NCBI RefSeq assembly: GCF_000226255.1
Contig: NZ_AGFG01000019.1
Span: 113,168-177,167 of the forward strand
DNA length: 64,000 nt
From: Desulfovibrio sp. A2
Lineage (GTDB): Bacteria; Desulfobacterota; Desulfovibrionia; Desulfovibrionales; Desulfovibrionaceae
Reading direction: 5' to 3'
The notes under the pieces: model-generated
What the model was told of the DNA's origin: nothing
Database searches by the model: none
The model's input: only the letters and a program-made list of their open reading frames with translations
Shown: in pieces, positions 3 through 59,843 of the stretch
Position numbering within the stretch: position 1 is the first letter of the stretch
Layout of the letters: each line of letters starts with the position of its first letter
Program-made: the position numbers and the translations under genes

Positions 3-230
3 TGCGGCTTTCTGGGCCAGCACGCCGTGCACGCCGCCATGGCGGGCCGCACCGGCATGGTGGTGTCCAAGCTTATGGACAGGTACGTGCACCTGCCGCT
101 GGACCTGGTGACGCGTACCCGGCGCAAGCTGAACGTGGCGTCCGACTACTGGCGGGCGGTGCTGGAGTCCACCGGCCAGGTGGATCTGGCGGGGATGGTG
201 CCGGATACCACGCGTGCCTGCCCGATCTAG
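3..230 (+). CDS. pfkA: ATP-dependent 6-phosphofructokinase, 3' end only
   Basis: Only the last 75 codons are in the window; the reading frame is open from base 3 and ends at TAG 228-230. The segment G-Q-H-A-V-H-A-A-M-A-G-R-T followed by a basic stretch and V-H-L-P-L matches the C-terminal part of group III phosphofructokinases, where G-x-x-A-x-x-A-A-x-x-G-x-T-x-x-M-V is well conserved. The enzyme phosphorylates fructose 6-phosphate in glycolysis in the cytoplasm. The active site lies outside the window, so ATP versus pyrophosphate specificity cannot be judged here. A structured repeat starts two bases after the stop codon. Confidence 0.75.
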   Translation, partial: CGFLGQHAVHAAMAGRTGMVVSKLMDRYVHLPLDLVTRTRRKLNVASDYWRAVLESTGQVDLAGMVPDTTRACPI

Positions 231-231
231 T

Positions 232-358
232 TTCCGGAGGGGCTTTCCCCCTCTGGCGGCGTCAGCCACCGTGTTCCGCTCGGGTCACGTACCGAAGAGT
301 ACGCTCCCCTCGCGGAACATGGGGCTTCCTTGCCAGATGACGAAATCCCCGTCCGGAA
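232..358 (+). repeat. Structured intergenic element, copy A (core 258-334)
   Basis: A large imperfect hairpin fills the gap after pfkA. The outer stem pairs 232-247 with 342-358 (one mismatch, one bulge). Inside are a stem TGTTCCGC (272-279) with GCGGAACA (312-319) and a hairpin CGTAC (288-292) with GTACG (299-303). The core 258-334 is homologous to 8659-8734 (+) and 47937-48013 (-). Conserved unpaired blocks are GCRTCA, GGTCACG, CGCTCCC and TTCCTTGCC. Stem sequences differ between copies but still pair. Function unknown. Confidence 0.7.
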
Positions 359-446
359 ACGGTGTTGCGCCCCGGCGCAACATTTTTGCCCACACGTTTC
401 GCATCGTAAGGTCACGTTCCTTCTTCCTTCCGGACACACCCACCCC

Positions 447-7504: not shown

Positions 7505-8626
7505 ATGCCTTTTCCGACCCTGAACATTGGCGACCTGGTCGCCCGCATACCCATCGTGCAAGGCGGCATGGGCGTCGGCATCTCGCTGTCGCGCCTGGCG
7601 TCCGCCGTGGCCAACGAAGGCGGCATCGGCGTCATCGCCGCCGCCATGATCGGGATGAAAGAGCCCGACGTTGCCAAGAACCCCATCGAAGCCAACGTCC
7701 GCGCCCTGCGCCGCGAACTGCAGAAAGCCCGCGAACTGACCCAGGGCATCGTGGGCGTGAACATCATGGTGGCCCTGACCACCTTTGGCGAAATGGTCCG
7801 CACCTCCATCGAGGAACGGGCCGACATCATCTTCTCCGGCGCGGGCCTGCCGCTGGACCTGCCCAGGCACCTGCGCGACGCCTGCGACCAGAAGAAGGAA
7901 GAATTCCGCACCAAGCTCGTGCCCATCGTGTCGTCCGCCCGGGCGGCCTCGGTCATCGCCAAGAAGTGGATATCCCGCTTCGACTACGTGCCCGACGCCT
8001 TCGTGGTGGAAGGCCCCAAGGCGGGCGGGCACCTCGGCTTCAAGGCCGAGGAGATCGACGACCCCAACCATTCGCTGGAAGCGGTCATCCCGCAGGTGGT
8101 GGAAGCGGTGAAGCCCTTCGAGGACGAAAAGGGCCGCCGCATTCCGGTCATCGCCGCTGGCGGCGTGTACACCGGCGAGGACATCACCCGGTTCATGGAA
8201 CTGGGCGCGGCCGGCGTGCAGATGGGCACCCGCTTCGTGGCCACCCATGAATGCGATGCCGACGACCGCTTCAAACAGGCCTACGTGGACGCCACCGAGC
8301 AGGACGTGACCATCATCAAGAGCCCCGTGGGCATGCCGGGCCGCGCCATCGGCAACTCGTTCATCGAGTCCATGCGCGAAGGCGCGAAAAAGCCCTTCAA
8401 GTGCGTGTTCAAGTGCATCAGCACTTGCGAGCAGGAGCAGACCCCGTACTGCATCGCCGCCGCGCTGATCAACGCCATGAAGGGGAATCTGGAGAAGGGG
8501 TTTGCCTTCTCCGGGGCCAACGTGTTCCGGGTGGACCGCATCCAGTCGGTGCACGAACTGGTGTCCTCGCTCCAGCAGGAGTTCGAGGAGGCTATCAGCA
8601 AGCGCTTTGGCATGTTGCGCGCGTAG
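7505..8626 (+). CDS. Nitronate monooxygenase family FMN protein
   Basis: A 373-residue TIM-barrel flavoprotein of the 2-nitropropane dioxygenase / nitronate monooxygenase family. Seen in the sequence: the N-terminal FMN-binding segment with Q-G-G-M-G-V-G-I and G-G-I-G-V-I, the family motif E-G-P-K-A-G-G-H-x-G near residue 170 carrying the conserved histidine, and A-A-G-G-V-Y-T-G-E-D with G-A-x-G-V-Q-M-G-T-R-F phosphate-binding segments near 220-245. The C-terminal part has four cysteines (C-V-F-K-C-I-S-T-C and Y-C-I-A), a feature of a clostridial/delta subgroup. Members oxidise alkyl nitronates; related FabK enzymes reduce enoyl-ACP, so substrate is uncertain. GGAGG lies 10 bases before the ATG. 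It is followed by a structured repeat and a terminator. Confidence 0.85.
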   Translation: MPFPTLNIGDLVARIPIVQGGMGVGISLSRLASAVANEGGIGVIAAAMIGMKEPDVAKNPIEANVRALRRELQKARELTQGIVGVNIMVALTTFGEMVRTSIEERADIIFSGAGLPLDLPRHLRDACDQKKEEFRTKLVPIVSSARAASVIAKKWISRFDYVPDAFVVEGPKAGGHLGFKAEEIDDPNHSLEAVIPQVVEAVKPFEDEKGRRIPVIAAGGVYTGEDITRFMELGAAGVQMGTRFVATHECDADDRFKQAYVDATEQDVTIIKSPVGMPGRAIGNSFIESMREGAKKPFKCVFKCISTCEQEQTPYCIAAALINAMKGNLEKGFAFSGANVFRVDRIQSVHELVSSLQQEFEEAISKRFGMLRA

Positions 8627-8631
8627 GCGTT

Positions 8632-8760
8632 GCGCGTTGCGCTCTTTCGCTCTCGGGCGGCATCAGGCCGCGCCGTTTGCTCTGGTCACGCACCTTTAGT
8701 GCGCTCCCGTCGCAACCGGCTTGCCTTCCTTGCCGGAGAGCGAAATTTCCGCAACGCCCG
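8632..8760 (+). repeat. Structured intergenic element, copy B (core 8659-8734)
   Basis: Second copy of the element seen at 232-358, starting just after the stop codon at 8626. The outer stem has TTTCGCTCTC (8645-8654) pairing with GAGAGCGAAA (8736-8745), plus a further GCGTTGCG pairing outside an internal loop. The inner stem is GCCGTTTGC (8672-8680) with GCAACCGGC (8712-8720, one mismatch), and the hairpin is CGCAC (8689-8693) with GTGCG (8699-8703), a compensated change from copy A. Core length is 76 against 77 nt in the other two copies. Confidence 0.7.
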
Positions 8761-8785
8761 CAACGTGCCCCGCCCAAAAAACACC

Positions 8786-47791: not shown

Positions 47792-47936
47792 GGGATGCTC
47801 CTTGGCGGTTGGAGGAACGAAAAACTCGCGTTCTTGCCACGGGTGCCGACCTGTCCGCAGTCAGGCCGGGCATCTATCTGAAAATACGCCTCTCTGGTTC
47901 GGCACCCCGACTGTAATCGGCGTCAGGGTGGGCAGA

Positions 47937-48014
47937 GGCAAGGAAAACAGGCTTTCCGCAAGGGGAGCGTACGTCGTCGGCACGTGACCCGCGCGGAAAG
48001 CCTATTTGACGCAG
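47937..48014 (-). repeat. Structured intergenic element, copy C (core)
   Basis: Third copy, on the minus strand, beginning 22 bases after the thiF stop and in the sense direction of the thi operon. The stem GGCTTTCCGC/GCGGAAAGCC (47993-48002 with 47950-47959) is perfect over 10 bp; the hairpin CGTGC (47984-47980) / GTACG (47972-47968) keeps pairing through one G-U. GGTCACG, CGCTCCC and TTCCTTGCC are identical to the other copies. Core length is 77 nt. The stem followed by TGTTTTCC could also act as a terminator. Confidence 0.7.
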
Positions 48015-48035
48015 CATATGGCCCCGCCCCGCGCG

Positions 48036-48659
48036 TTACGCCATGAAGCCGGGGCAAGGTCCGAGGATGTGACTAAGCACCGCATCCGCCTGCATGGCCG
48101 CCGCCATGGTCACGCGCGGGGCCAGCGGCGGCAGATCGTGGCCCACCTCGCTGGTGAAGTCGCCCACCAGCACCATGCGCTCGCCCATGCGGCGCATCTG
48201 CATGGCCGGGCCGCCCCAGCCGCCCATGCCCGAGGCGGACACCACGAACGCGCCCATTTCCAGCGCGGCCTCCACGAACATGCGCTTGGCCTCGGGGTCG
48301 TCCAGGGCTTCCACCAGAATGTCGCACCCGGCGAACACGTCGGCCACGTTGGTGGGGGTCAGCTCCACGCGCCGGGCGGTGACCACCAGGCGCGGCTCGA
48401 TGACGCGCAGGCTTTCCGCCAGCGCGTCCACCTTGGACTTGCCCAGATGAAACGGCTGGTACTGCTGGCGATTGAGATTGGAGGGTTCGACCACGTCGCG
48501 GTCGGCCACCACGAGACGGCGCAGGCCGCTGCGCACCAGCATGGCGGCGCAGTTGGAGCCAAGGCCCCCTGCCCCCGCGATGCCCACGCGGGCCGCGGCC
48601 ATGCGTTCAAGGTGGTCATGTTCGAGATACCGGGCGAGACCGTCGGAAAGAATGCTCAC
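48036..48659 (-). CDS. thiF: Sulfur carrier adenylyltransferase ThiF (family 2)
   Basis: A 207-residue E1-like enzyme that adenylates the C-terminus of ThiS. The nucleotide fold has V-G-I-A-G-A-G-G-L-G-S-N near residue 25, D-x-D-V-V-E-P-S-N-L-N-R-Q near 48-60 with the conserved Asp and Arg, and K-V-D-A-L near 72. It is shorter than E. coli ThiF and lacks the C-terminal Cys/zinc part, as in the ThiF family 2 found with ThiH. The start is GTG 48659, with AGGAG 6 bases before it; the ORF upstream to 48761 has no ribosome binding site. thiH ends 102 bases upstream. Confidence 0.88.
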   Translation of the reverse strand: MSILSDGLARYLEHDHLERMAAARVGIAGAGGLGSNCAAMLVRSGLRRLVVADRDVVEPSNLNRQQYQPFHLGKSKVDALAESLRVIEPRLVVTARRVELTPTNVADVFAGCDILVEALDDPEAKRMFVEAALEMGAFVVSASGMGGWGGPAMQMRRMGERMVLVGDFTSEVGHDLPPLAPRVTMAAAMQADAVLSHILGPCPGFMA

Positions 48660-51231: not shown

Positions 51232-51255
51232 CTTTGATGGCCCGAAGGCGAGGAA

Positions 51256-51338
51256 GCTTCCCTACGGCAGGATGACCTGCATCAGGTTCTCGGGGTCGGA
51301 AGGCTGCCCTTCCCTCTCAGCCCGTGCGGGCTCCCCCA
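51256..51338 (-). promoter_or_regulatory. TPP riboswitch (thi-box), proximal copy
   Basis: Reading the minus strand, the aptamer carries GGGGGAGCCC, GGGCTGAGAG, GACCCCGAGAACCTGAT and CCGTAGGGAAG in the right order and spacing, the conserved blocks of the THI element. It senses thiamine pyrophosphate and lies about 90 bases before thiS. Confidence 0.93.
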
Positions 51339-51399
51339 GCTTCGCGTCATGGCGCGCCCGCCGTGCGGCCCGGCCTTCATCCTTGCGGCGGGCGAACAA

Positions 51400-51430: not shown

Positions 51431-51457
51431 CCGGCATTTCGGGCGCGGTACGCTCAG

Positions 51458-51538
51458 CTTCCCTACGGCAGTGTGAACTGCTTCAGGTTCAGAGGGTCTG
51501 GAGGCGTGCTCCACTCTCAGCCCTACGGGCTCCCCTAG
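51458..51538 (-). promoter_or_regulatory. TPP riboswitch (thi-box), distal copy
   Basis: A second full aptamer on the minus strand: GGGGAGCCCGTAGGGCTGAG, then GACCCTCTGAACCTGAAG and CCGTAGGGAAG. All conserved internal-loop bases for TPP binding are visible. It is the first to be transcribed and has its own terminator. Confidence 0.93.
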
Positions 51539-51550
51539 CTGAATGAGCGA

Positions 51551-58862: not shown

Positions 58863-58958
58863 GTCGTGCTACTCCCTGGGTTGGGGGGATTGCGGCACGG
58901 GCGGCTCGGGGTTTGGTGGCCCGGCCGCCCGCCGGGAACACTTTCAACGAATGCAAAC

Positions 58959-58972
58959 CAGGATTTTTTGTC
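58959..58972. promoter_or_regulatory. Sequence shared by the glpK and glp regulator upstream regions
   Basis: The minus-strand string GACAAAAAATCCTG lies about 100 bases before glpK; with one extra A it recurs at 63006-63020 where it spans the -35 box of the regulator promoter. It may be a common control site or a shared promoter part. Confidence 0.35.
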
Positions 58973-58992
58973 CGCTGGCAAGGAAACTAGCT

Positions 58993-59038
58993 TGGCATAA
59001 GGGAGGATACTCTTCTCGTATTCGACCGGCATGCCAAG
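58993..59038. promoter_or_regulatory. Inverted repeat between glpF and glpK
   Basis: TTGGCAT (58993-58999) and ATGCCAA (59032-59038) are perfect arms around 32 bases that include another small ATAC/GTAT pairing. It could be an operator or a weak RNA processing hairpin in the glpF-glpK gap. Confidence 0.35.
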
Positions 59039-59084
59039 AGACGTTTGACGCCGCCAGCGGGAAAAAGGACGGTTTGCACCACCA

Positions 59085-59843
59085 TTAGGCGGACTGGGCC
59101 TTGTGCACGGCACCCGTCGTCCAGTCGTAGATGAACGCGCCAAGCGGGCCGCCGATCAGCGGACCGACGATGGGCACCAGCACGATGCCGGGTTCCATCA
59201 GGTTGGGCTGGGTGAAGCCCGCCACCAGGGCGAAGAAGCGCGGACCGAAGTCGCGCGCGGGGTTGATGGCGTACCCGTGCATGGCGCCAAGGCTCATGCC
59301 GATGGCCACCACCAGCAGCGCCACCAGGATGCCGCCGATCCAGCCGATGTTGTTCTTGCCCGCGAAGTCGCCGATGGCGAGGATGCCGAACATCAGCACG
59401 GCGGTGCCGATGATCTGGTCGATGAAGCCCGGCAGGTAGGACGTGGTGATGGCCGGGAAGGTGCAGAAGATGCCCGCGGTGCTGGCCAGTTGCGGGTCAG
59501 CGCCGATCCACTTGGCGTAGAAGTCCGCGAAGACGATGGCCGCGCCGACAAAGCCGCCCGCAACCTGCGCGATGGAGTACGGCAGCACCTTCTTCCAGGG
59601 GAAGCGGCCGGTGGCGGCCAGCGCCAGACTGACGGCGGGGTTGATGTGCGCGCCCGAGGGCAGGCCGGCCATGATGCCCAGCAGCACGGCGAGACCCCAC
59701 CCGAAGGTGATGTTGTCCCAGGTTATGTTCAGGCCCTTGCCGAAAAGCACGGTCATGGCCACGTTGCCTGCGCCGAAGATGATCAGGACCATGGTGCCCA
59801 TGAATTCGGACAGCATTTCCCGGCCCAGCGAAAGTTCCTTCAT
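59085..59843 (-). CDS. glpF: Glycerol uptake facilitator GlpF (aquaglyceroporin)
   Basis: A 252-residue MIP channel with six transmembrane helices and both half-helix motifs: the first as H-I-N-P-A-V-S near 67 and the second as A-I-N-P-A-R-D near 200. The Asp after the second NPAR is the usual mark of glycerol channels as opposed to water-only aquaporins. F-G-A-G-N-V near 22 is also typical. AGGAGG precedes ATG 59843; the long open frame upstream is not coding. Glycerol enters here and is trapped by GlpK encoded downstream. Confidence 0.94.
   Translation of the reverse strand: MKELSLGREMLSEFMGTMVLIIFGAGNVAMTVLFGKGLNITWDNITFGWGLAVLLGIMAGLPSGAHINPAVSLALAATGRFPWKKVLPYSIAQVAGGFVGAAIVFADFYAKWIGADPQLASTAGIFCTFPAITTSYLPGFIDQIIGTAVLMFGILAIGDFAGKNNIGWIGGILVALLVVAIGMSLGAMHGYAINPARDFGPRFFALVAGFTQPNLMEPGIVLVPIVGPLIGGPLGAFIYDWTTGAVHKAQSA

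Follow-up and report, generated by a model that had tools for sequence, protein, structure and literature searches.

A folded, dispersed repeat at stop codons of Desulfovibrio sp. A2 and its likeness to ERIC

Copies in the window and across the order

The window (the whole stretch of DNA that was analysed, 64 kb from Desulfovibrio sp. A2) contains four strong copies of a palindromic repeat according to both covariance models used here, R1 and R2, each placed at a stop codon read in the same direction (Table 1). Three of them, A, B and C, had been recognised from the bare letters in a preliminary description, and we found them where it had placed them, with the same common blocks, folding as claimed and with a sense stop codon closely upstream of each; that account had counted three copies only, and the fourth (D) was recovered by the covariance models. 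Apart from these, the window had no R2 match with E of 10 or below; for R1, the next matches stood at E 1.5 and 2.3. Copies A, B and C form long stable hairpins (fold z-scores of -6.56, -4.96 and -3.41, respectively), the tip hairpin of copy A being GGTCACGTAC..GTACGCTCCC at 283-308. A known Rfam RNA family was rejected, as none matched a copy in the window or in 12 cross-phylum loci at the gathering score, nor in 12 loci of the own genome at E ≤ 5. The window also carries two tandem TPP riboswitches on the minus strand (51242-51347 and 51443-51546).

Table 1 Copies of the repeat in the window, with the bit scores from two covariance-model searches.
Copy	Extent	Strand	Stop codon	Modelled core	Outer arms	Scores (bits)
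A	228..360	+	TAG 228-230	243-348	~231-258, 335-359	81.5 and 107.8
B	8624..8765	+	TAG 8624-8626	8644-8748	present	78.3 and 101.8
C	47923..48038	-	TAA 48038-48036	48028-47923	no clear long outer arms	62.5 and 75.7
D (locus L103)	58940..59087	-	TAA 59087-59085	59067-58963	outer arm to ~58940	48.9 and 61.5

That the copies belong to a real structured family was borne out by the three-block pattern GGTCACG..CGCTCCC..TTCCTTGCC, which occurs at 13 exact places in the own genome (G000) and nowhere in the reversed control. Model R1 was built from those 13 copies, and the genome search with a covariance model, which the preliminary description had proposed, returned 92 places at E ≤ 1.1e-6 and 104 when the limit was set to E ≤ 10. 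This count is a lower bound, because 150 of 2574 first-look candidates were scored and three more copies lay in the flanks; the own genome therefore holds at least 92 copies, far beyond chance. In the fetched loci, 112 matches at E ≤ 0.001 were reduced to 98 copies once duplicates and copies at locus ends had been dropped. Eight genomes of the same genus, the own included, carry 66-96 copies each, R1 matched 21 of 39 genomes (E ≤ 0.1), and R2, with 26 candidates scored in each genome, matched 55 of 150 from the order at E ≤ 1e-4, where the spread was patchy even inside one genus. A copy in Nitratidesulfovibrio oxamicus (L165) closely resembles the own-genome copy L028. Inspection by eye gave no clear signal of a replication-strand bias among the copies in the sister genome G007.

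Two further kinds of repeat accompany the family. A variant subfamily, TGCTCACGTAC..GTACGCTCCGC with GGAATCCG / CGTAATTCC flanks, comprises L107, L108, L111, L112, L114, L115, L119, L121 and others, mostly not beginning at stop codons. A second dispersed repeat of ~50 nt, GCGGTCGCCATCCGTAA..AACGGCTGCCGCA, is nested in the palindromes of some copies, either in the tip loop or in place of the 5' arm; it is present at L028, L043, L039 (1312), L106, L109, L113, L116, L126 and L128, and in the 5' arms of L078, L110, L118, L122 and L125.

The folded core, its covariation and its likeness to ERIC

In the folded element a long outer stem leads through an internal loop (CGTC / CCTTG) to a second stem, which ends in a tip hairpin with a TCA/CTC 3x3 internal loop. 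The 77-nt core of the preliminary description is real, but the element reaches further: the modelled core spans 105-106 nt, and in G007 the well-kept copies are 148-149 nt long, counted from TAGGGG through CCCCTA. By eye, the tip loop of the own copies seemingly exists in two versions: TCA closed by a C-G or T-A pair, and TCG (or TCA) having an A.A mismatch at that position. They are perhaps two forms of one 3D motif.

To look for relatives we used the pattern GGTCACGTACN{2,10}GTACGCTCCC, which gave at least 118 stretches in genome_contigs (80 among the matches listed), where ~4 would be expected by chance under uniform base composition (our own arithmetic). By record title, the listed loci belong to Clostridia and Bacilli, Bacteroidales, Gamma- and Alphaproteobacteria, Deltaproteobacteria, Coriobacteria, Myxococcales and Verrucomicrobia, which suggests, as the titles among the matches listed read, relatives in about seven phyla; they include named non-metagenome records, namely Porphyromonas somerae, P. 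levii, Sporosarcina luteola, Lysinibacillus and Citrobacter. When R1 was applied to 67 of the 80 listed loci, 64 had a match with E of 0.01 or less. All 106 model positions are covered in 85 of the 87 R1 matches on cross-phylum loci. In several other bacteria the copies form short tandem arrays, with two same-direction copies ~122-130 bases apart at L149, L151, L156, L160, L163, L177 and L186.

Across these sets the loop bases are conserved in sequence, including across phyla, and the stems are kept mainly as pairing, with outer arms that differ from copy to copy in the own genome. The compensated stems that had been claimed from three copies were upheld both in a structure-fitted alignment and in a test that used no alignment. 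Of the 28 predicted pairs, 17 stay paired through two-sided changes in at least one of the 13 own copies, rising to 26 of 28 in 86 distinct cross-phylum rows, in which 88.4% of cells are paired vs. 59.3% after shuffling and 29.6-49.1% after sliding. One of five covariation measures, the number of further pair types, did not exceed the shuffles (93 vs. 89.4, a value that 63 of 500 shuffles reach). Because the cross-phylum alignment had been fitted to the structure, we added an arm-swap test, in which the pairing between the 5' arm and the 3' arm, taken beyond the pattern, within each copy was compared with that in 20 swaps between copies. Arms from the same copy paired at -40.2 kcal/mol across phyla vs. 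-21.3 when swapped (58 of 75 beat all 20 swaps) and at -46.4 vs. -24.6 kcal/mol in G000 (37 of 54), whilst the outermost G000 arms alone gave -21.6 vs. -13.0 kcal/mol (24 of 54 beat all swaps); the G000 sample is the 54 of 98 copies whose tip hairpin could be placed by script. When 58 cross-phylum copies were aligned plainly with MAFFT, RNAalifold recovered just the hairpin fixed by the pattern, with 7 pairs and no covariation. The outer pairs were noisy when cross-phylum copies were folded with the stop codon as the starting point.

The preliminary description had taken the element as apparently undescribed, while leaving room for a named family, and here it needs correction, as the folded core is common to ERIC under covariance models run in both directions. 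R1 scored an E. coli ERIC copy at 36.1 bits, two Citrobacter copies at 35.6 and 40.3 bits and a Serratia copy at 29.8 bits; the Citrobacter copy L182 aligns with E. coli over 127 bp, which is the ERIC length given in PMC2229807. In the opposite direction, R2 was built from the 87 R1 matches minus Desulfovibrio-titled and enterobacterial loci, yet its matches at E ≤ 0.1 number 92 in G000 and 88 in G007, and on 43 kb of E. coli they are the two ERICs alone (54.0 and 30.3 bits). As modelled, the kinship thus holds both ways over nearly the full model length, beyond the tip hairpin, and the element has the folded core (CGTY/CCTTG loop plus TCA/CTC tip hairpin) by which we define the ERIC superfamily here. 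Among its nearest described counterparts is ERIC / IRU / RU-1 (ISfinder MITEEc1), with MITEPlu5 of Photorhabdus. A 44-nt ERIC centre, made from the two ERIC-PCR primers, is present in 5373 of 5426 E. coli genomes. Among the titles and abstract openings listed by searches of openly licensed literature there were no ERIC relatives outside Gammaproteobacteria and no stop-codon insertion rule, and the main texts of the structured-RNA discovery papers examined contained no mention of ERIC.

The likeness to ERIC may extend to length, ERIC being an imperfect palindrome of ~127 bp and our element having the core and full lengths given above; a position at gene 3' ends is common to both, and at locus L123 the own-genome element has TA at either end. 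There are also differences: ERIC is described from Enterobacteriaceae and Vibrionaceae (PMC10969869), a host range outside which our element falls; the outer arms vary from copy to copy, and so the conserved terminal sequences of ERIC proper are missing; E. coli copies end in TATAC..GTATA, unlike the TAG..CTA seen here and the TGA..TCA or TAA..TTA often seen in other phyla; and the copies begin on the stop codon itself. The TA termini and target duplication of ERIC are seen at L123, but are weak over all copies, and many cross-phylum copies start at TGA. GTAG and CGTC REPs are likewise dispersed palindromes downstream of genes in many phyla, but they measure 20-40 bp by the description in PMC3733652, against ~105-150 nt and two internal loops here. 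The CGTC REP, given there as an 8-9 bp stem with a 4-5 nt loop and a CGTC tag at one end, was rejected because our element is a much longer two-loop structure. The preliminary description took a match to Rfam or to a REP family as evidence against an undescribed element; ERIC is indeed a known repeat, although no Rfam family matches and the element is not a 20-40 bp REP. Correia/NEMIS and RUP, MITEs with a TA target described in PMC2229807, resemble it in size (~100-155 bp), TA ends and long stem loops, and differ in their longer contiguous terminal repeats of 24 and 9 bp and in the IS630 helper that is suspected for RUP.

Stop codons, strand bias and mobility

In the own genome, 62 of 98 copies have their modelled core 0-32 nt past the same-strand stop of a called gene, and none of the 98 shows the mirror arrangement on an opposite-strand stop. 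The stops at those 62 copies are TAG (47), TAA (9) and TGA (6), so that TGA is depleted relative to the 353 of 946 stops (37%) in G007 (p = 1.2e-6), as it is relative to the other genes in the own loci (5/55 vs. 43/153, p = 0.005). By eye, the remaining 36 copies divide into ~7 on TAG/TAA after a long open frame missed by the simple gene caller, ~12 of the variant subfamily with other ends, ~7 with another repeat in the 5' arm and ~10 away from stop codons, of which some stand in tandem with a further copy. Between genes of the same direction, 57 own copies are sense and 9 antisense. In 1.2 Mb of G007, 15 of the 24 copies lie at a stop read in their own direction and a single one at a stop of the other direction, where 14% would be expected if all non-coding or stop TAG/TAA were equal targets, an expectation that does not account for selection against other insertions. 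The genes upstream are of many kinds. An intrinsic terminator was rejected, as the copies examined by eye have no consistent T-run after them (a few have one, e.g. L026).

A similar arrangement recurs in other phyla, where a same-sense stop precedes the tip hairpin by 30-70 nt in 34 of 62 loci, and an opposite one in 3 of 62. In 28 of 39 cross-phylum copies the eight bases after the stop have their reverse complement on the far side (≤ 2 mismatches), and the palindrome tends to begin at the stop codon in very different bacteria. TGA is frequent among these stops (18 of 40), and TA alone is therefore not the rule across phyla.

The small mobile element that was among the roles first proposed is borne out at L123, where the element is present in one of the eight genus genomes (G000). 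The empty sites in the other seven genomes read TGTA(A/G)CCCGCG, and the filled site reads TGTA[GGGG...CCCC]TAACCCGCG, with TA repeated at the far end and, as the right flank shows, an original TAA stop turned into TAG by the insertion. Over the own copies, TA stands at the mirrored 3' distance in 14 of 55, only a weak enrichment over the 6-13 of 55 at other offsets, which speaks against a general TA rule. At L077 the element is found in two genomes (G000 and G005) and is absent from the other six, and both of its arms differ at once between the two carriers. Copies are also exchanged between sister species: the stop codon of copy A carries a different copy in G007, and the locus of copy B, in the seven genomes with the orthologous gene, holds this type in three, the variant subfamily in two and neither in two. 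Copy B suggested that outer arms might be copied from the target flank; this was rejected for L123, whose empty site has no such arm. Comparison of L016 with its G007 counterpart shows a nearly identical inner core with both outer arms swapped for other complementary sequences.

Pairing, mobilisation and interpretation

The element as a whole is probably a non-autonomous, mobile, MITE-like palindromic repeat, which an enzyme acting in trans would insert at TA; it would represent, in Desulfovibrionaceae, a broad structural superfamily to which ERIC also belongs. Within the genus the target would be TA, mostly that of a TAG or TAA stop codon, and TA may be the general target; the usual first base of the element, G, would restore the stop (TA+G), and the far end would read C-TA. 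As TA+G remakes a stop, the protein would be left unchanged. Since loops are conserved and stems are kept by pairing, the mobilising factor probably reads the folded form, and recognition of a folded strand by the mover is thus predicted. This explanation leaves unaccounted for the 62:0 strand bias, which a symmetric TA target and near-symmetric ends would not produce; the weak TA enrichment at the mirrored distance, the frequent TGA stops across phyla and the negative searches for a mover also count against it.

Pairing kept in mRNA is expected to tolerate G-U and not A-C. Departures from pairing in the stems of G000 number 26 G-U vs. 48 A-C (101 distinct alignment rows), against 11 vs. 3 in the acceptor stems of 67 tRNAs as a control, whereas across phyla they number 75 G-U vs. 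46 A-C. As A-C exceeds G-U in the own genome, the stems give no sign of RNA-level selection there, and across phyla the sign is slight; the covariation noted in the preliminary description stands, but not as a pointer to RNA selection. The counts agree no less well with folding as single-strand DNA or with template-switch correction of palindromes. This excess of A-C, which argues against an RNA role of the stems, weighs against an element domesticated as a 3'-UTR RNA and maintained through selection on the mRNA (stability, processing or a bound protein) with only incidental mobility, as do the diversity of upstream genes and the presence, absence and exchange of copies among sister species. 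We consider such an element quite unlikely, even though the sense-only siting right past stop codons and the very stable folds speak for it, and Yersinia ERIC is described as altering the stability of upstream mRNA in an orientation-dependent manner (PMC2229807, PMC10969869).

Template switching in palindromes, or quasi-palindrome correction, copies one arm onto the other, and stem pairing might then be kept by mutation instead of selection. The lack of a G-U excess in the own stems, the simultaneous differences in both arms at L077 between G000 and G005, and L016, where the core is unchanged and both outer arms are replaced, are what such copying would leave; the loop conservation across phyla and the strand bias are not explained by it. 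It is possible, if on the whole rather unlikely, that this process maintains the pairing, and it can be compatible with a TA-inserting MITE-like repeat.

With regard to the mover, G000, whose L123 insertion is private among the eight genus genomes, has no match to DDE_3, Y1_Tnp or RVT_1, and Y1, IS630 and reverse transcriptase were rejected on that ground. In the 150 genomes of the order, DDE_3 (IS630) occurs in 33, RVT_1 in 46 and Y1_Tnp in 74; dividing these into 17 copy-rich genomes (≥ 20 scored copies) and the other 133, DDE_3 is found in 1 vs. 32, RVT_1 in 6 vs. 40 and Y1_Tnp in 10 vs. 64. If the repeat were a MITE derived from an IS630/Tc1-like transposon, the origin suggested for the ERIC-like MITEPlu5, this would agree with the TA at the ends, the TA repeat at L123 and the CCC-type IS630 ends, which resemble MITEPlu5 and whose elements are proposed as its kin in PMC6267812. 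We nevertheless judge it very unlikely: DDE_3 has no match in G000, G001, G004, G005 and G007, where the autonomous IS630 partner of an IS630-derived MITE was thus not found; it is scarce in the copy-rich genomes; and the outer arms vary between copies, unlike a fixed terminal repeat. The IS630 kinship proposed for MITEPlu5 does not fit the own genus.

Movement of a REP-type element by a Y1 (RAYT or IS200-like) transposase, which would recognise a hairpin in single-strand DNA, would account for conserved loops on variable stems, and Y1_Tnp does occur in those 10 copy-rich genomes (in G001 and G004 as short pieces only). G000, G005 and G007 have no match, however, and there is no clear association with copy-richness because 64 of the 133 other genomes match too. 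Size and ends are also unlike those of GTAG REPs as described in PMC3733652, and we regard a Y1 mover as most improbable; the GTAG REP / RAYT system proper (20-40 bp, GTAG tag, Y1 gene) was rejected by size and by the lack of Y1_Tnp in G000. No transposase appeared among the Pfam families matched by more than one protein (108 of 141 listed cross-phylum flanking frames, commonest 25 of 158 families). In the search for an autonomous partner, pairs of element ends 755-3482 bases apart do occur in the 1.2 Mb of G007.

A wider proposal is a pan-bacterial element whose insertion is coupled to translation stops, in the sense direction, at all three stop codons and in many phyla, through a widespread enzyme that reads a folded DNA or RNA strand by its loops, with ERIC as the enterobacterial branch; we advance it tentatively and think it unlikely. 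The sense-only stop-codon rule is a strong and testable clue.

After insertion the element would occupy the first part of the 3' untranslated region of the gene. There it can fold into a hairpin of great stability, which may protect the end of the transcript or take part in its processing. For Yersinia, an ERIC copy that is suitably oriented is described as acting on upstream mRNA via an RNase E site (PMC2229807, PMC10969869), and by analogy a like effect is plausible as a candidate here.

ERIC is the namesake of a PCR typing method, and its primers occur in 10 openly available papers dating up to 2012. Should ERIC form one branch of a superfamily that spans about seven phyla and has a single conserved folded core, the mobilising enzyme would become findable by comparison, for which copy-rich and copy-free sister genomes provide the contrast. 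Insertion into the TA of a stop codon, with a first base G that makes TAG again, would be a way of entering the genome that spares the gene.
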